Assembly (NCBI GenBank): GCA_944326685.1
Contig: CALVEV010000001.1
Location: 62,001-126,000 of the forward strand
DNA: 64,000 nucleotides
DNA from: Candidatus Gastranaerophilales bacterium
GTDB taxonomy: Bacteria; Cyanobacteriota; Vampirovibrionia; Gastranaerophilales; Gastranaerophilaceae
Reading direction: 5' to 3'
Both the position numbers and the translations under genes were made by a program. Shown in pieces: positions 4,037 to 13,749 of the stretch. Each line of letters opens with the position of its first letter. Positions within the stretch are counted from its first letter, which is position 1. The notes beneath the pieces are model-generated. The model saw only the letters and a list, made by a program, of their open reading frames with translations. It did not search any database and was not told the DNA's origin.

Positions 4037-5365
4037 ATGGGTTTAGCTACATCACAAGTTAGACTATTAGCATTAACATCTCGTAAAGCAGATGTTGAAA
4101 TGCAAATACAGCTTAACTCTAAGCGTAAAACTATGTTGACGCGTGAAGCTACAGAATTAGCTAAACTTTATTATGCTAAACTCCAAAATACTAGAATTCA
4201 ATATGCTACAACCAATGGAAATAAAGATGTTACATATAATTACTTGATGGGAACTCCTAATAGTAATTACTTTGATCAAATTATATACCCAACATCAGAA
4301 AACAATATTGATCGAAAAACATCGGACAGCATGGTGTTAACAGACGCATATGGACGTGTAATACTTTCTAATTCAATGGTTAATGTAGTTCTATCTACTT
4401 TAAATCAAGCAACAACACCTGGATTAGCCGGAGGACAAGAAACAACAGAATCAAGAACTATTTCTGCTATGGTTTATTTATTAGAAGAAATGGCTTCTGG
4501 CTCAATGGGAAATTCTAGTGCAGCAGGTGCAGTACTAGAAGTTTATAATTCACTTTACCAAGGGACTGCTTGGGGAACAGGTGGAAACCAAAAACCAGAA
4601 CTTGGTTATGAAATATTACAACATTTATTAAGAAATGGCTACAAACATGGTGGTGAAATATATCGTAAAGGAAGCACAGGAGCTTATACATATTATCCAA
4701 ATAGCAAATGCGAATCTGGAACTGAAATTACTCCAGAAAATGGAACATTTTATATAGTTAAAAATAGCGACGGTAGCTACGTAACAGCTGATGGAGTAGA
4801 CTCAAGTGGTTCAGGTATAATGTATTGGAACGGGGAATTTGTTCCTAAAATAAATACCATTGTGGCTCAAGAAATTTGTAATATGTATAGTTTTTATGGT
4901 TCTATTTTTTCTGCAGCTTTCAATGGAACAAATCAAGGTTGTCAAGGCTTCAACGTTGCAGCACAAATCAATTATAATAAAATAACTGGTGAATGGGTCC
5001 TTGTATCTAACGATGCATATAATACTGTTTCTAACGTTGAAAACTTACAAGATGGTTTAAAATCAGGAATGTATCAACTAGTTAATGTAGAAACACCTGT
5101 CACAGGAGGATATTCAAAAGCCCAAGGATTAGATTACTTTAAAACATTAAATTATGTTGTTGAAAAAGCAGATACAGCAGCAAGAGATACTATTACGGCT
5201 TGGTATGATGCTGCAAGAGCTGATTTAAATGAAAAAGAATCCTATTGGGACTCTGAAATTACAGCCTTATCTTCAGAGTTAAATTCAATAACTACAGAAA
5301 TAGAATCTGTAAAAAAATTAAGAGAGGATGCAATATCTTCAACATTTAAGTGGGGTGGAGCATAA
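4037..5365 (+). CDS. Unrecognised MGxAxSQ-family protein, long form 1 (442 aa)
   Basis: Not a family I recognise. It starts MGLATSQVRLLALTSRK, matching the starts of the proteins at 7943, 10103 and 13408, and ends in a predicted coiled coil (from about residue 400) finishing FKWGGA, again like those proteins. The ~350-residue middle is Asn/Thr/Gly/Tyr-rich and shares only scattered motifs such as IQY...NYxxG and DAYGRVI with the 7943 protein. There is no signal peptide and almost no cysteine. The sigma-28-type promoter 59 bases upstream links it to late flagellar genes. Inference: a substrate of the flagellar export apparatus that may assemble outside the cell through its end helices. AAGGAG precedes ATG 4037. 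Confidence 0.85.
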   Translation: MGLATSQVRLLALTSRKADVEMQIQLNSKRKTMLTREATELAKLYYAKLQNTRIQYATTNGNKDVTYNYLMGTPNSNYFDQIIYPTSENNIDRKTSDSMVLTDAYGRVILSNSMVNVVLSTLNQATTPGLAGGQETTESRTISAMVYLLEEMASGSMGNSSAAGAVLEVYNSLYQGTAWGTGGNQKPELGYEILQHLLRNGYKHGGEIYRKGSTGAYTYYPNSKCESGTEITPENGTFYIVKNSDGSYVTADGVDSSGSGIMYWNGEFVPKINTIVAQEICNMYSFYGSIFSAAFNGTNQGCQGFNVAAQINYNKITGEWVLVSNDAYNTVSNVENLQDGLKSGMYQLVNVETPVTGGYSKAQGLDYFKTLNYVVEKADTAARDTITAWYDAARADLNEKESYWDSEITALSSELNSITTEIESVKKLREDAISSTFKWGGA

Positions 5366-5498: not shown

Positions 5499-7586
5499 TT
5501 ACGCTTTAGCAGCTCCTGATTTTTCAATAATTTCTTTTTCGATATTAGCAGGAACTTGTTCATAGCATTGGAATTCCATAGAGAAAGTACCACGGCCTTG
5601 AGTTTTAGAACGAATATCAGTTGCATATCCGAACATTTCAGCAAGTGGAACTAATGCTCTGATTTTTTGTATTCCAGTACCTTCAATGATTTCCATACCT
5701 TCAACACGTCCACGACGAGAAGAAATATCACCAATAATATCACCAGTGTTTTCTTCAGGAACTTCGATTTCTACTTTCATCATAGGTTCAAGAATACAAG
5801 GTTTTGCTTTTCTTGTACCTTCTTTGATAGCCATAGAACCAGCAATTTTAAATGCCATTTCAGAAGAGTCAACTTCGTGGTATGAACCATCATATAAAGT
5901 AACTTTAACGTCAATCATTGGGAATCCAGCTAAAATACCGCCTTCAAGTGCTTCTTCCATACCTTTTCTAGCAGGTTCAATGTATTCTTTAGGAATAGCA
6001 CCACCAACGATTTTATTTTCAAATACGAAACCAGCATTTTCTTCAGCAGGTTCGATTTGGATTTTAACGTGACCATATTGACCTTTACCACCAGATTGTC
6101 TGATGAATTTAGAATCTTGATCAGCATTACCTCTGATAGTTTCACGGTAAGCAACTTGAGGTTTACCAACGTTTGCGTCTACTTTGAATTCTCTTAATAG
6201 ACGGTCAACAATGATGTCTAAATGAAGTTCACCCATACCAGAAATAATTGTTTGACCAGTTTCGGTATCAGATTTAACTCTGAATGATGGATCTTCTTCT
6301 GCAAGTTTTTGAAGTGCAATACCCATTTTATCTTGGTCAGCTTTTGTTTTTGGTTCAATAGCAACTGAGATAACTGGTTCTGGGAAGTTGATTTTTTCTA
6401 AGATAATAGGTGCTTTTTCATCACATAATGTATCACCTGTTGTTGTATCTTTTAAACCAACTGCTGCACAGATATCACCTGCGTAAACTTCATCTTCTTC
6501 AAGTCTTTGATCAGCATACATTCTAACAAGTCTTGAAATACGTTCTTTTTTACCATTTGTAGCATTAAGAACATAAGAACCAGATGTAAGTTTACCAGAA
6601 TATATTCTCATGAATGTTAAACGACCAACATATGGGTCAGTCATAACTTTGAATGCTAAAGCTGAGAATGGTTCTTCATCAGAAGAATGTCTTTCTACTC
6701 TTGTTCCATCTTCTAATTCCCCTTCAATAGCTTTTACATCAACAGGTGAAGGCATTAATTCAACAATTGAATCTAATAATAATTGAACACCTTTGTTTTT
6801 GAATGCTGTACCACAAGTAACAGGAACAATTTTGTTATCGCAAACAGCTTTTCTTAAACCTTTTTTCAATTCATCAACAGTGATTTCTTCGCCTTCTAAA
6901 TATTTCATCATAAGTTCATCATCAGTTTCAGCAATAGCTTCAACTAATGCATCTCTATATGCTTTTGCATCATCTAACATATCTGCAGGAATTTCTTCTT
7001 CTTTAATATCAGTACCTAAGTCATTAGTGTAAATTTCTGCTTTCATTGTAAATAAATCAATTAAGCCTTTAAATTGATCTTCAGCACCAATAGGTAATCT
7101 GATAGGATGAGCATTAGCGCCTAATCTATTTTTGATTTGGTCTACTACACGATAGAAGTTAGCCCCTGTTCTATCCATTTTATTAACAAATACCATACGA
7201 GGAACTTCATATCTGTTAGCTTGTCTCCAAACTGTTTCAGATTGAGATTGAACACCACCTACTGCACAAAAAACAGCAACAACGCCGTCTAATACACGAA
7301 GAGAACGTTCTACTTCAATTGTAAAGTCAACGTGACCAGGGGTGTCAATAATATTAATTTGGTGTCCTTTCCAAGATGCAGTAACAGCAGCTGATTGGAT
7401 TGTAATACCACGTTCACGTTCTTGTTCCATAAAGTCAGTTACAGCTGCGCCATCGTGAACTTCACCAATTTTATGAGTTTTTCCTGTGTAAAACAAGATA
7501 CGCTCTGTTGTAGTGGTTTTACCAGCATCAATGTGAGCGGCAATACCAATGTTTCTAATTTTTGCTAATGGAGTCTTTCTTGCCAT
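5499..7586 (-). CDS. fusA: Translation elongation factor G
   Basis: EF-G catalyses GTP-dependent translocation and ribosome recycling. G1 [10 protein letters not shown]3 DTPGHVDF and G4 NKMD are all present in the first 150 residues, followed by domains II-V; 695 residues is the normal length. AAGGA precedes ATG. Oddly, fusA is not next to rpsL/rpsG/tuf here but sits alone between two members of the MGxAxSQ family transcribed the other way. Elongation factor G paralogues exist in some bacteria; the sequence looks fully canonical, so it may be the housekeeping copy. Confidence 0.97.
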
Positions 7587-7784: not shown

Positions 7785-7791
7785 CCGTATT

Positions 7792-7859
7792 GAGAAGTCA
7801 TGTAAATATTGACTTTTCATCATGTTGACTTTGGAAAAAACGTCATTAAAGACAACATG
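7792..7859 (+). promoter_or_regulatory. Structured 5' leader of the first tandem copy (two hairpins)
   Basis: Hairpin 1: GAGAAGTCA pairs with TGACTTTTC around the loop TGTAAATAT. Hairpin 2: CATGTTGACTTT (7821-7832) pairs with AAAGACAACATG (7848-7859) except for one A-A mismatch. The second tandem copy has the same loop but a different paired stem (AACCCA/TGGGTT), so base pairing is kept while sequence changes, which is direct evidence for a selected RNA structure. It begins at the predicted transcript end and may stabilise the mRNA or control translation. Confidence 0.6.
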
Positions 7860-8031
7860 TACAAACTTGATGTATAGAAGGAAAAGTATGACAAAAAAAC
7901 AGTATAAACATTACCAAAACAGCAAAATAGGAGGACACGCTTATGGGTATGGCAGCATCTCAGGCTAGGTATATAGCCTTGACTGCTCGAAAGAGTAATG
8001 TTGAATACGAAGGGCAACAGATTAACCAAGC
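7843..8031 (+). repeat. Direct repeat copy 1 (leader, uORF and first ~90 bases of coding sequence)
   Basis: Near-identical to 10006-10191. The differences are a few substitutions and one 3-base deletion inside the short upstream ORF. The first ~88 bases of the large gene are identical in both copies, including third codon positions, whereas the middle of the genes has diverged. Confidence 0.9.
7888..7968 (+). CDS. Short upstream ORF (26 codons) overlapping the start of the 579-aa gene
   Basis: ATG 7888 has a close AAGGA and opens a 26-residue frame beginning MTKKQYKHYQNSK and ending YGYGSISG at TAG 7966-7968. It runs through the SD and start of the large gene (ATG 7943) in another frame, overlapping it by 26 bases. 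The second tandem copy keeps the frame despite sequence changes, including a whole-codon deletion. It may be a leader peptide whose translation opens or blocks the downstream start. It is not proven to be translated. Confidence 0.45.
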   Translation: MTKKQYKHYQNSKIGGHAYGYGSISG

Positions 8032-9682
8032 AAGGTTAGCGTTGGCAAATCAATCAGCCAATCTATTCAACCAAATGATGGGAATGAGTGTTCCGACACC
8101 ACCATCTACAACAGATTTTACAACCATTCAATATTCATTTAGTGATGGTGTAAATACTGAAGTATTATCAAATTATTATCAATTAGGTAATTCTGATTCT
8201 GAGTACAACTATGTTGTAACTACTTACCACAACGAAAAAGTTTACACAGGTTCTAAAAAATTACTTAATGACCCTCAAGTTCAAGCGACAGCTACAAATC
8301 ATTTCAGTTACGATCCTACATCAACTGATAATAATACAAGCATGAATGTTGCTAAAGCTTGGAAAAATACCGATGGAACTTATGGTATGCAACCAACAGA
8401 CGGTTCAACATCAATATTCCGTCCTGTTACAGCTAAAGAAGAAGACCAAGTAAGAGCTATTAACAAAGGTAATGGCCTTTATGAAGCTCAAGCAGCAGCT
8501 GGTGATGCCCCAGCAACTAATGGATTATTTAAAAATATTACAATTGATGGTGCAGGAACTTTCAATGCTGATAATGTTGATTCATTCAAATATGATGGTT
8601 CAACATTCCAAAAAGTTACTTATAATGCAGCTGGTACAGGCATGCCTGAAGGCACTAAGGATATAATTGATTCTGTAATTCAAACTCCAGGTACAAATGT
8701 ATATTATGTAGATGAAAATGGTCGTGTAATTACTGATGCTGATCTAAAAGCCGCTGAAACTGGTTATGGTGTTGGTGGGGCAACAAATCCTGAAGAACCA
8801 ATTGCAATAAGAGAAGCTAAAGGTCAAGGATTAGAAACTGCTGGTGATCAAAAATATTATACAGATGGTAAAAAATTCATTACTAAGGCAGATTTAGATA
8901 ATGCAGTTGCAAAATACAACAAATATGTAGAAACAGGCAAAAAAGAACCTAATGATGTTAATTTTATTAATGTGTCAAATGATCCAACATTCTCTAATTA
9001 TACAGCTGTAGGTAACTGTTCTTTAACAGAGTTAAAAGAACAAGATATAGAGAATGAAGATGTATGGACCGAATTAGAACAAATCATGAAGGATATGAAA
9101 GGTCCAAATGGTAGTCAATTAGCATCAGAAAACTTCGCAGCTTGTTTTGATACCGATGAAAATGGTGATCTTGTCTACAAAGGTGGTATTTATACATTCC
9201 AAATGGGTGGAACTACCTACTATACAACTAAAAATGACCTAGATGCATCTTTAGGAACATCTATTGTTGATAATGGTATTGATGTTCAACAAGGCAAGTT
9301 AAATTACTATAATGCAAGTTATCTTGAAACAAAAGTAGAAGAAACACAAAAAGCATTATTAGAAACAGATGGTGCAGGTCGTTTCAAAACCGTTAAATTT
9401 GAAAACGACTCAGTAACATATTCTTTAAATGCAGAAACAGTAACAGATGAGGCTGCATATAAGGATGCTATGAATCAGTATTATTATGAAAATGCTGAAT
9501 ATGAAAAAATGATTTCTGATATTAATGCGAAAACTGAAATCTTACAAGCACAAGATAGAACCCTAGAACTACGTCTTGAACAGTTGAATACTGAACAATC
9601 TGCATTACAAAATGAAATGGAAGCAGTTAAGAAGGTAGTAGACAAGCACGTAGAACAAGGCTTCAAGACATTTGGTGGCTAA
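7943..9682 (+). CDS. Unrecognised MGxAxSQ-family protein, tandem copy A (579 aa)
   Basis: Unrecognised. The N-terminal ~45 residues (MGMAASQARYIALTARKSN...) form a predicted amphipathic helix shared with 4037, 10103 and 13408. The C-terminal ~70 residues are a predicted coiled coil with Glu/Gln/Leu heptads (RTLELRLEQLNTEQSALQ) ending GFKTFGG. The central ~450 residues are Asp/Asn/Thr/Gly-rich with short repeats such as DENGRVIT, DENGDLVYKGGIY and TTYYTTKNDLD, likely beta-rich. No signal peptide. It has about 80% identity by eye with 10103, strongest at the ends. AGGAGG sits eight bases before ATG. The termini-conserved, centre-variable layout recalls flagellins; secretion and assembly are inference. 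Confidence 0.87.
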   Translation: MGMAASQARYIALTARKSNVEYEGQQINQARLALANQSANLFNQMMGMSVPTPPSTTDFTTIQYSFSDGVNTEVLSNYYQLGNSDSEYNYVVTTYHNEKVYTGSKKLLNDPQVQATATNHFSYDPTSTDNNTSMNVAKAWKNTDGTYGMQPTDGSTSIFRPVTAKEEDQVRAINKGNGLYEAQAAAGDAPATNGLFKNITIDGAGTFNADNVDSFKYDGSTFQKVTYNAAGTGMPEGTKDIIDSVIQTPGTNVYYVDENGRVITDADLKAAETGYGVGGATNPEEPIAIREAKGQGLETAGDQKYYTDGKKFITKADLDNAVAKYNKYVETGKKEPNDVNFINVSNDPTFSNYTAVGNCSLTELKEQDIENEDVWTELEQIMKDMKGPNGSQLASENFAACFDTDENGDLVYKGGIYTFQMGGTTYYTTKNDLDASLGTSIVDNGIDVQQGKLNYYNASYLETKVEETQKALLETDGAGRFKTVKFENDSVTYSLNAETVTDEAAYKDAMNQYYYENAEYEKMISDINAKTEILQAQDRTLELRLEQLNTEQSALQNEMEAVKKVVDKHVEQGFKTFGG

Positions 9683-9699
9683 TAATAGTTAGAACTAAA

Positions 9700-9836
9700 A
9701 TTGAGAAATCACAAGTATATTACAATTATGGTTTGCTGTTTTGGCGAATACTTAAAAGATGCTTATGGTTCCTTCCTATACCAGCTGGCTTGATTATTCG
9801 TCCCATTTGTTAAAATATATTGAATAATTTCTCAAT
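9700..9836. repeat. Ten-base inverted repeat enclosing a decayed gene remnant
   Basis: ATTGAGAAAT at 9700-9709 and ATTTCTCAAT at 9827-9836 are perfect inverted copies flanking the remnant of a Gly-rich gene. No target-site duplication or transposase is visible, so it may simply be an RNA stem or chance in AT-rich DNA. Confidence 0.35.
9728..9812 (+). pseudogene. Decayed copy of the 11889-type Gly-rich gene
   Basis: Two blocks match the beginning of the intact gene at 11889. The first corresponds to its DGLLVIANKF segment (here YGLLFWRI). The second reads AYGSFLYQLA-stop-LFVPF against ACGGFLYQLASLFAPS of the intact gene. About 110 bases between the blocks are missing, and a stop replaces a serine codon. 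It lies directly after copy A, where the intact gene lies after copy B, so the duplicated unit contained both genes and one partner has decayed. Confidence 0.72.
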
Positions 9837-9851
9837 AATACTAAGTAGAAT

Positions 9852-9887
9852 AACGAGATATCTTAAAAAAGGTATCTCGTTTTATTT
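9852..9887 (+). terminator. Terminator after tandem copy A
   Basis: AACGAGATATC and GGTATCTCGTT form an eleven-base-pair stem (one G-U pair) around an eight-base A-rich loop, followed by TTTATTTTAT. Confidence 0.88.
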
Positions 9888-9922
9888 TATCCTCCAAACA
9901 GATGAAATTATTTCATATAAGT

Positions 9923-9949
9923 TACATTTTTCAATGAATTTGTCGTTAG
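9923..9949 (+). promoter_or_regulatory. Sigma-28-like promoter of the second tandem copy
   Basis: TACATTTT (9923-9930), 11 bases, then GTCGTTAG (9942-9949). The -35 matches TAAAGTTT at six of eight positions; the -10 is identical to that of copy A. The predicted transcript begins near 9957, at the first conserved hairpin. Confidence 0.55.
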
Positions 9950-9956
9950 ACGTCAT

Positions 9957-10022
9957 GAGAACCCATGTAAATATTGGGTTTCAGACGTTGACTTTAATAA
10001 AAAAATCATTAAAGACAACATG
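9957..10022 (+). promoter_or_regulatory. Structured 5' leader of the second tandem copy (two hairpins)
   Basis: Hairpin 1: AACCCA and TGGGTT around the same TGTAAATAT loop as in copy A, with compensatory changes in the stem. Hairpin 2: GTTGACTTTAAT (9987-9998) pairs with ATTAAAGACAAC (10008-10019) with one A-A mismatch at the same position as in copy A. An outer ACGTC/GACGT pairing (9950-9954 with 9984-9988) is possible here but is largely upstream of the predicted transcript start and weak in copy A. Confidence 0.6.
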
Positions 10023-10191
10023 TACAAACTAAATGTATAGAAGGAAAAGTATGACAAAAAATCAGTATAAACATTACAACAACAAAATAGGAGGACATGC
10101 TTATGGGTATGGCAGCATCTCAGGCTAGGTATATAGCCTTGACTGCTCGAAAGAGTAATGTTGAATACGAAGGGCAACAGATTAACCAAGC
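10006..10191 (+). repeat. Direct repeat copy 2
   Basis: Partner of 7843-8031, covering the leader hairpin 3' arm, the upstream ORF, the SD and the first ~88 bases of the large gene. Confidence 0.9.
10051..10128 (+). CDS. Short upstream ORF (25 codons) overlapping the start of the 576-aa gene
   Basis: ATG 10051 with AAGGA just upstream opens a frame reading MTKNQYKHYNNK...GHAYGYGSISG and stopping at TAG 10126-10128, overlapping the main start (ATG 10103). Relative to copy A one codon is deleted and substitutions occur, but the frame, start, SD and stop are all kept. The C-terminal half is constrained by the overlap, so only the first half gives independent support. Confidence 0.45.
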   Translation: MTKNQYKHYNNKIGGHAYGYGSISG

Positions 10192-11833
10192 TAGAACAGC
10201 TTTGGCTAACCAAACGGCTAACCTATTCAACCAGATGATGGGTATGGGAGTTCCAACTCCACCATCAACAACAGATTTTACTACTGTACAATATTCATTC
10301 AGTGATGGTGTAAATACAGAAGTATTATCAAATTATTATCAATTAGGTAATTCTGATTCTGAGTATAACTATGTTGTAACTACTTACCACAACGAAAAAG
10401 TTTACACAGGTTCTAAGAAGAAGATGAATGACCCTCAAGTTCAAGCAACTAAAACAAACCACTTTACTTATGATCCGACATCAACAGATGATAATACAAG
10501 TATGACAGTTGCTAAAGCTTGGAAAAATACTGATGGAACATATGGAATAGAAGCATCAGATGGAACAACTACTATCTTCCGTCCAGTAACAGAAAAAGAA
10601 GAAGACCAAGTAAAAGCTATTAACAAAGGTAATGGTGTTTTAGTTGATCAAGCAGCTGCTGCTGATGCTCCATCAACAAATGGTTTATTTAAGAATATTA
10701 CGATTGATGGTGCAGGAACTTTCAATGCTGATAATGTTAATTCATTCAAATACGATGGTTCAACATTCACAAAAGTTGAATATGATACAGCAGATGCTTC
10801 AATGCAAGGCATAATTGATTCTGTAATTCAAAATCCTGCAGGTAATAATTACTATGTTGACGAAAATGGACGTGTAATTACAGATGATGATTTAAAAACT
10901 GCAGAAACAAATTATGGTGTTGGTGGTGCAACAAATCCTGAAGAACCAATCGCAATAAGAGAAGCTCAAGGTGAAGGTATCACTGGTGATCCTACTACAG
11001 AAAATTATTTTACAGACGGTAAAAAATTCATTTCAAGAACTGATTTGGATAATGCTGTTGCTAAATATAATAAGTATGTAGAAACAGGTAAAAAAGAACC
11101 TAATGAAGTTAATTACATAACTCCTCAAAATGACCCTACATATTCAAACTACACCGCTGTAGGTAACTGTAAATTAACAGAATTAAAAACAGCTGATCTT
11201 GAAGATGAAGATGTATGGGCTGAATTAGAACAAATCATGAAAGACATGAAAGGTCCTAATGGTGATACAACAGCAGCGGCAAACTTTGCAGCTTGCTTTG
11301 ACACTGATGAAAATGGGGATCTTGTCTACAAAGGTGGAATCTATAAATTCCAAATGGGTGGTACAACTTATTACACCACTAAAAATGATTTGGATACCTC
11401 ACTAGGAACATCTATCGTTGATAACGAAATTGATGTTCAACAAGAAAAGCTAAACTACTATAATGCTTCTTATTTAGAAACAAAAGTAGAAGACACTCAA
11501 AAAGCTTTATTAGAAACAGATGGTGCGGGTCGATTCAAAACCGTTAGATTTGAAGATGATTCAGTTACATACACTTTAAATACAGAAACAGTAACAGATG
11601 AAGATGCATACAACGATGCAATGAATCGTTACTACTACGAAAATGCACAATACGAAAAGAGTATTGCTGACATCAACGCTAAAACTGAAATTATTCAGGC
11701 TCAAGATAGAACCCTAGAACTACGTCTTGAACAGTTGAATACTGAACAATCTGCTTTACAAAACGAAATGGAAGCAGTTAAGAAGGTAGTAGACAAACAC
11801 GTAGAACTTGGATTCAAGACATTCGGCGGTTAA
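10103..11833 (+). CDS. Unrecognised MGxAxSQ-family protein, tandem copy B (576 aa)
   Basis: Paralogue of 7943, same architecture: N-terminal helix MGMAASQARYIALTARK, variable Asp/Asn/Thr-rich centre with DENGRVIT and DENGDLVYKGGIY, and a C-terminal coiled coil ending GFKTFGG. ATG 10103 is chosen over ATG 10097 because AGGAGG lies eight bases before it and the start then aligns exactly with copy A. Nucleotide identity is near complete over the first ~90 and last ~130 bases and lower in the middle. No terminator separates it from the Gly-rich gene 55 bases downstream, so the two are probably cotranscribed from the sigma-28-like promoter at 9923. Confidence 0.87.
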   Translation: MGMAASQARYIALTARKSNVEYEGQQINQARTALANQTANLFNQMMGMGVPTPPSTTDFTTVQYSFSDGVNTEVLSNYYQLGNSDSEYNYVVTTYHNEKVYTGSKKKMNDPQVQATKTNHFTYDPTSTDDNTSMTVAKAWKNTDGTYGIEASDGTTTIFRPVTEKEEDQVKAINKGNGVLVDQAAAADAPSTNGLFKNITIDGAGTFNADNVNSFKYDGSTFTKVEYDTADASMQGIIDSVIQNPAGNNYYVDENGRVITDDDLKTAETNYGVGGATNPEEPIAIREAQGEGITGDPTTENYFTDGKKFISRTDLDNAVAKYNKYVETGKKEPNEVNYITPQNDPTYSNYTAVGNCKLTELKTADLEDEDVWAELEQIMKDMKGPNGDTTAAANFAACFDTDENGDLVYKGGIYKFQMGGTTYYTTKNDLDTSLGTSIVDNEIDVQQEKLNYYNASYLETKVEDTQKALLETDGAGRFKTVRFEDDSVTYTLNTETVTDEDAYNDAMNRYYYENAQYEKSIADINAKTEIIQAQDRTLELRLEQLNTEQSALQNEMEAVKKVVDKHVELGFKTFGG

Positions 11834-11888
11834 TACTAGTTAGTATTAAATATTGTTACTATTCAATTAGCATAATATTGAGGACACA

Positions 11889-12746
11889 ATGGCATATAAG
11901 AATGATGGTTTACTGGTTATAGCGAATAAGTTCGGAGCAGCATCCGCTGATGCAAAGTGTATGCTATACGAAACTTATGATAGATTAAGAGACTTAACCG
12001 TTTCTGGTTCTGCAAGCTCCGGAACAGGCTTTGAGGCTTGTGGTGGCTTCCTATACCAACTTGCCAGCCTATTCGCTCCATCCTCTTTTATGAATACATT
12101 GGGCGGAACTCAATCATTTAATATCCCTGGTACTTCATATTGGTCACCATATTCTGGTGGTACAGGTACTGTAAGTGGGGGTTATGGCGCTTTTGGACTT
12201 AGCGGACTAGGGAACTATTCAGGGTTCCCTAGTGGAGCCGCTAATGTTAAGTGGGGCTTAGGAAGCGGTTCTACAACTGGTGGAGCGTCTAGTATTAATG
12301 GATTATTATCAGGACTTGGATCTGCAAGTGGCACAGTTACAGGAGGAGCTTCAAGTATTGGTAGCGTTGCAGATGTAGCATCTGCAGCTGCATATGGTAT
12401 TGGAACTGCAAATGGTTATGGGATTGGAGCTGCGGGTATTTTAATGCCTTTAGCCGGATTAGTTTCTGGTTGGGGTGGTATTATGACTGCGGCAGCACCT
12501 TATTTAGGAGAATTCGGATTACCTGCTATTGTTATGGGTAATTTAATGCAAGGAACTTCATCAGCAGCTTTATCTGCTTATCAAAATGTATCTAGTAATA
12601 TTTTATCAAATGCCGACACAATTCTTTCTCAAAAAGTTGCAAACATTGAAACTGTTTGTAAAATGCTTGATACACAAGGTGAAGTTGTAAGAAAAATGTT
12701 AAAAGAACAAATGGACGGCGACAGCAAAGCTATTCAAAACTTATAG
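11889..12746 (+). CDS. Gly/Ser-rich hydrophobic protein cotranscribed with copy B (285 aa)
   Basis: Unrecognised. Residues ~1-75 are mixed (YETYDRLRDLTVSGS, then FLYQLASLFAPS). Residues ~80-165 are Gly/Ser/Thr-rich low complexity. Residues ~165-225 are long hydrophobic Gly/Ala-rich stretches with glycine-zipper spacing (YGIGAAGILMPLAGLVSGWG). The last ~60 residues are a helical, charged tail (NIETVCKMLDTQGEVVRKML). There is no N-terminal signal peptide. A hydrophobic Gly-rich centre followed by a helical tail could insert in a membrane, and its placement after the family protein suggests a common pathway; both are inference. GAGGA precedes ATG 11889. A decayed copy follows tandem copy A. Confidence 0.82.
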   Translation: MAYKNDGLLVIANKFGAASADAKCMLYETYDRLRDLTVSGSASSGTGFEACGGFLYQLASLFAPSSFMNTLGGTQSFNIPGTSYWSPYSGGTGTVSGGYGAFGLSGLGNYSGFPSGAANVKWGLGSGSTTGGASSINGLLSGLGSASGTVTGGASSIGSVADVASAAAYGIGTANGYGIGAAGILMPLAGLVSGWGGIMTAAAPYLGEFGLPAIVMGNLMQGTSSAALSAYQNVSSNILSNADTILSQKVANIETVCKMLDTQGEVVRKMLKEQMDGDSKAIQNL

Positions 12747-13407: not shown

Positions 13408-13749
13408 ATGGGTTTAATAGCATCATCAATGCGATTATTAACACTAACTGCTTATAAAAATCAGTTAGAAATGCGCATTCAATCTGTGACTGAAAGTTTA
13501 ATTGGACTTCAATCACAAATTGATGAATTAGTAACAATAGGTGCTGATTTAGACCCTGATAGTGATGCTTTAAAAGATTTAAAAGTTAAAAAAGAACGCC
13601 TTAATTTAATAGAGAAAAAATTAGAAATGCAACAAAAACAATTCCAAACTCAATTGGAAGCTGTTAACCAAGAAATTCAATCTTGTCAACAAATGCTTGT
13701 TGGTAATATTCAAAGCGGAATCTTTGGATATTCTTTAGGCGGTAGATAA
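13408..13749 (+). CDS. Unrecognised MGxAxSQ-family protein, minimal form (113 aa)
   Basis: Begins MGLIASSMRLLTLTAYKNQLE, aligning with the N-termini of 4037, 7943 and 10103, and continues directly into a predicted coiled coil (LNLIEKKLEMQQKQFQTQLE) that ends FGYSLGGR, matching their C-terminal ends. The variable centre is absent, so this protein consists of just the two conserved ends. This defines the family core and suggests the ends work together, for example by pairing as in flagellin D0. AAGG precedes ATG 13408. Sigma-28-type transcription is likely through the upstream 89-aa gene. Confidence 0.8.
   Translation: MGLIASSMRLLTLTAYKNQLEMRIQSVTESLIGLQSQIDELVTIGADLDPDSDALKDLKVKKERLNLIEKKLEMQQKQFQTQLEAVNQEIQSCQQMLVGNIQSGIFGYSLGGR

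Follow-up and report, generated by a model that had tools for sequence, protein, structure and literature searches.

Two large genes stand in tandem in the window (the whole 64,000-nucleotide stretch of Candidatus Gastranaerophilales DNA that was analysed), each preceded by a short open reading frame that runs into its beginning, and the question that arises is whether these upstream ORFs (uORFs) are translated elements acting on the genes behind them, or by-products of leaders conserved for some other reason. The first-pass annotation had described both as SD-preceded ORFs that pass, in another frame, through the SD and start codon of the gene behind, and we found this layout in copy A as well as in copy B (Table 1): the large-gene ATGs that are crossed lie at 7943 (copy A) and 10103 (copy B), and the uORF stop codon (TAG) falls 24-26 nt inside the large gene in both. 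The copy B uORF likewise proved to be that of copy A minus exactly three bases, with start, frame and stop kept, and the two differ by a few substitutions as well. A longer version of the uORF, which would begin at an in-frame ATG situated 18 nt upstream (MYRRKS...), was discarded, as this ATG is missing in G001, G004, G006 and one G007 leader.

Table 1. Features of the tandem locus (window coordinates; +, forward strand).
Feature	Position	Strand	Description or basis
Conserved upstream element, copy A	7789..7806	+	ATTGAGAAGTCATGTAAA (genus form CATGAGAAGTCATGTAAA), upstream of the promoter; genus-wide matches
Predicted promoter, copy A	7825..7852	+	TTGACT - 16 nt - TAAAGA; TTGAC-N16-TAWA pattern across leaders
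SD of uORF, copy A	7878..7882	+	AAGGA; sequence; GAGG/AAGGA kept in relatives
uORF, copy A	7888..7968	+	ATG 7888 to TAG 7966-7968; 26 codons plus TAG; peptide MTKKQYKHYQNSKIGGHAYGYGSISG
SD of large gene, copy A	7929..7934	+	AGGAGG, within the uORF; sequence
Large gene, copy A	7943..9682	+	579 aa; MGMAASQARYIALTARKSN... family, function unknown, no Pfam family
Predicted hairpin at coding start, copy A	7962..7979	+	AGGCUA-GGUAUA-UAGCCU; minimum-free-energy and consensus fold; uORF stop in 5' arm
Decayed remnant of the downstream gene (11889-12746)	9696..9806	+	blastn to 11834-12150, two pieces, 76%, E 1e-6 and 4e-6
Intrinsic terminator between the copies	9852..9881	+	13-pair stem, then T run; sole one found
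Conserved upstream element, copy B	9954..9971	+	CATGAGAACCCATGTAAA; genus-wide matches
Predicted promoter, copy B	9988..10015	+	TTGACT - 16 nt - TAAAGA; TTGAC-N16-TAWA pattern across leaders
SD of uORF, copy B	10041..10045	+	AAGGA; sequence; SD kept in relatives' leaders
uORF, copy B	10051..10128	+	ATG 10051 to TAG 10126-10128; 25 codons plus TAG; peptide MTKNQYKHYNNKIGGHAYGYGSISG
SD of large gene, copy B	10089..10094	+	AGGAGG, within the uORF; sequence
Large gene, copy B	10103..11833	+	576 aa; 85% identity to copy A
Predicted hairpin at coding start, copy B	10122..10139	+	as in copy A; minimum-free-energy and consensus fold

The large genes belong to a multi-copy protein family (MGMAASQAR...) with about 15 matches per genome, found in 56 of 58 relatives; other members are located at 4037-5365 and 13408-13749 of the window and at loci L009-L045 of the relatives. 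For copy B, the start at 10097 given by the ORF-list call was not adopted, since that ATG is missing in copy A. Searches of the large protein against Pfam, NCBIfam, PHROGs and PDB returned no relative above the cut-off, and a literature search on the family yielded nothing relevant. Its predicted structure has a mean pLDDT of 38; helices are predicted at the N-terminus (2-46) and the C-terminus (500-574) on either side of a variable middle, with no known domain, and the layout alone of this low-confidence model recalls filament or secreted-rod proteins. Given the remnant of the 11889-12746 gene behind copy A, the duplicated unit comprised the leader, the large gene and the start of the next gene, and the terminator at 9852-9881 indicates that the two copies are separate transcription units. 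An Elongation factor G gene (5499-7586, minus strand) lies divergently upstream of copy A.

Each copy has a predicted promoter of its own, the TTGAC-N16-TAWA pattern of which (with identical 16-nt spacing) recurs in 7/7 distinct uORF leaders scanned and in 22/36 other family leaders; a generic promoter scan did not list that of copy A. This promoter pattern is family-wide (leaders L009-L030, from many genera) and often has CCGTATAATT some 20 nt upstream of it. In the genus, the conserved upstream element (form CATGAGAAGTCATGTAAA, at most 2 mismatches) has 11 matches, one per readable uORF leader and none elsewhere in those genomes, and may be a candidate regulator site. With transcription predicted to begin about 7 nt downstream of TAAAGA, the 5'UTR measures 71-83 nt in the leaders with a uORF versus mostly 24-57 nt in those without, which suggests that the uORF arrived together with a lengthening of some 35-40 nt.

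The uORF is restricted to one genus of uncultured bacteria from the gut (Candidatus Gastranaerophilales), in which all 11 readable leaders (two each from G000, G002, G003 and G007, and one each from G001, G004 and G006) carry it with the same start, frame and stop, covering seven of the eight species; in the eighth genome (G005) the large-gene start is lost at a contig end. A search with the uORF peptide gave no match in the 280 family genomes outside the genus (288 searched, the genus included), and the uORF was found neither in the leaders of other genera nor in two other paralog groups checked in the same genomes; leader L038 of paralog 2 carries an unrelated SD-preceded uORF. From the uORF ATG to the large-gene SD (-52..-16) the mean pairwise identity across seven species is 0.92, compared with 0.64 just upstream of this block (-85..-52, same species) and with 0.73 and 0.49 for -52..-16 in two control paralogs of the same seven species, and it is precisely with the uORF ATG that the conservation sets in. 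Control paralog 1, which has no uORF, shows an identity of 0.90 in its leader at -85..-52.

Within the block, the frame-preserving indels that the first-pass annotation had proposed to look for were indeed observed: after the uORF ATG only multiples of three occur (-3/+3; length differences of 3 and 6 nt), the distance from the uORF ATG to the large-gene ATG being 55, 52 or 49 nt, and the length changes before the uORF ATG amount to 5-6 nt and are not multiples of three. Neither a frameshift nor a stop codon, named beforehand as the observation that should count against a maintained uORF, was present in the 11 leaders of the 7 species; the ATG and the SD were never lost, and in every leader the latter (GAGG or AAGGA) has kept its distance of 4-6 nt to the ATG despite a diverged and length-changed spacer. 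Neutral simulations restricted to substitutions left the ORF open in every lineage in 42% of runs, a share that fell to 1.5% once two indels, their lengths drawn from an assumed natural distribution, were added. As substitutions alone leave the ORF intact so frequently, the coding evidence depends on the two indels and on SD retention, and as all sequences derive from one genus the independent events are few. On the basis of these alignments we regard the conserved element beginning at the uORF ATG as real, and consider that there is moderate evidence that the frame of the uORF matters.

To what extent such an arrangement could arise by accident can be judged from leader shuffles (promoter-proximal part randomised, the large gene's own SD and start retained), which produced an SD-preceded, start-overlapping uORF in 1.6-2.2% of cases, or about 2% per leader; the corresponding frequency was 1/38 in leaders of relatives and paralogs, and 1/38 in other genes of the window. 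When no SD is required, an overlapping ATG uORF appears in 32-36% of shuffles, and because overlapping ATG frames of this kind are common, it is the SD and the conservation that make the uORF notable. A chance ORF, kept merely through the closeness of the species and through gene conversion between the tandem copies, would accord with this rate of about 2% and with the first 20 codons of copies A and B, which are almost identical, as expected from gene conversion; it is already disfavoured, and in our view quite improbable, by the strong divergence of the adjacent leader stretch and of the rest of the gene between the same species, and by the 70% protein identity to G001 and G004, both of which are single-copy. 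Of selection on the peptide there is no sign. The synonymous bias anticipated for the non-overlapping first half of the uORF is missing (about 9 nonsynonymous changes versus 1 synonymous, where neutral change would give 72%, 18% and 9% for nonsynonymous, synonymous and stop), residues 7-12 are free to vary (YKHYQN, YTHYNN, YIQC-N), and purifying selection on the amino-acid sequence was not detected among these few changes, which afford low power; since the bias is missing, the uORF peptide does not look selected. A functional microprotein (in copy B, MTKNQYKHYNNKIGGHAYGYGSISG) would be suggested by its occurrence in every readable leader of the genus and by a second half (KIGGHAYGYGSI[ST]G) that is invariant except for S/T, but that half is constant because it is dictated by the large-gene SD and the beginning of the large-gene coding sequence, the first half shows no amino-acid constraint, and there is no match elsewhere among the 288 family genomes, all of which renders this explanation extremely improbable. 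The large-gene start itself shows almost no synonymous change across the genus up to about codon 22 (7943-8010, 10103-10170). We do not take this conservation as specific evidence of dual-coding constraint, nor count it as evidence for the uORF, because it extends past the uORF stop (at codon 9) and is shared with a uORF-free control paralog that is equally conserved at its coding start (0.97 over 0..27).

At the RNA level the leader proved to be unstructured, its fold z-scores ranging from -0.55 to 0.52, and without an Rfam match, a terminator between the uORF and the large gene, or covarying or compensatory changes and competing helices. The hairpin predicted at the coding start (+20..+37) is kept apart from a single U-A to U-G change, compensatory changes being absent, and, with the uORF stop sitting in its 5' arm, would be opened by a ribosome translating the uORF. 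The likeness to classical leader-peptide control drawn in the first-pass annotation found no support, as this unstructured leader offers no attenuator, terminator, stall motif or alternative hairpins. That the uORF should be a true regulatory leader peptide, namely an arrest peptide or attenuator at which stalling alters the RNA structure and switches the large gene, is very improbable: its shortness and its own SD resemble known leader-peptide systems and the hairpin is located at its stop, but the free variation of residues 7-12 speaks against it, as does the lack of a single-amino-acid codon run. The main rival to a throttling or coupling uORF is of another kind, namely that the A-rich block (ATGACAAAAAATCAGTATAAACA...) is conserved as nucleotides (an unstructured leader that offers ribosomes a standby site or enhances translation, an element for RNA stability, or a site bound by an sRNA or protein) and that the open frame is a by-product. 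We treat this as a serious possibility, clearly below an even chance, since it would account for first-half changes without synonymous bias in an unstructured leader, since conserved leaders free of any uORF do occur in the genus (as in control paralog 1), and since the frame so often stays open under substitutions alone; on the other hand, the block has its start precisely at an ATG whose SD is maintained, its internal indels are multiples of three only, and the control paralogs do without such a block.

Taken together, these observations leave the coupling or limiting effect proposed in the first-pass annotation plausible, and suggest that the uORF is probably a simple throttle or coupler of translation and not a working peptide. 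To the more specific proposition, that a translated overlapping uORF throttles or couples initiation on the large gene independently of the peptide, we would give nearly an even chance; it fits the low amino-acid constraint of the first half. Under such a scheme, each tandem gene would be transcribed from its own TTGACT-N16-TAAAGA promoter, the mRNA having a leader of 71-83 nt on which the uORF, equipped with its own ribosome-binding site, would start some 30 nt behind the predicted 5' end. Once on the uORF, ribosomes would cross the large-gene SD and ATG out of frame and terminate at the TAG 24-26 nt inside the large gene, intermittently occluding the large-gene start site and melting the hairpin. 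As a net result, translation of the large gene would be coupled or subject to a fixed throttle, an effect that needs initiation and frame of the uORF but not its peptide. Coupling is not obviously needed by the large gene, because its own SD (AGGAGG) is strong and unstructured. As for its origin, the uORF would have been gained with the leader lengthening in the ancestor of the genus, and later duplicated together with the gene. More tentatively, we consider it possible that selection on this genus-specific overlapping uORF concerns only its initiation, its frame and the position of its stop. It would then be a hard-wired throttle or coupler whose out-of-frame overlap, at 26 nt, is unusually deep, and would have been gained on a single member of a large multi-copy family and retained when the gene was duplicated in tandem.

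By analogy, the nearest known layout appears to be that of E. coli uof-fur, in which expression of fur is described as coupled to the short leader ORF uof (PMC11550727), which lies immediately upstream of fur, crosses its start and ends just past it (PMC7867234). The likeness is one of layout only (a short leader ORF crossing the downstream start), and we claim no relation in sequence. The uORF described here shares with this type an SD-preceded start, an open out-of-frame run through the downstream start and conservation above the local background (within one genus), and, just as uof is missing in the related genus Yersinia, it is missing outside its own genus. However, uof ends a few bases past the fur start whereas the present overlap measures 26 nt, and uof is a RyhB target with iron-responsive rare codons, while no such partner is known for the uORF. 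There is also some likeness to the coat-lysis arrangement of the RNA phage MS2 (termination-reinitiation), in that the downstream gene begins before the preceding frame has reached its stop; owing to this position, a ribosome terminating on the uORF would need to move about 25 nt backward. RNA structure keeps the lysis start of MS2 closed, and this start is located within a long coding gene, in contrast to the strong and open SD at the large-gene start. Leader peptides of the trpL, ermCL and tnaC type are likewise short SD-preceded leader ORFs, but they end before the gene, whereas the uORF overlaps the gene start and has neither an attenuator nor a conserved stall sequence.

Should the block turn out to be merely an A-rich leader element, the locus would amount to a minor curiosity. 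If the uORF is translated, it would be a clean natural example of an overlapping uORF acquired by a single genus, for which the uORF-free paralogs of these genomes serve as internal controls, and it would show that selection on such uORFs can act on position and frame and on nothing else. A further consequence would be a hint of translational control in the uncultured Gastranaerophilales, exerted on a family of unknown function that has about 15 members per genome.
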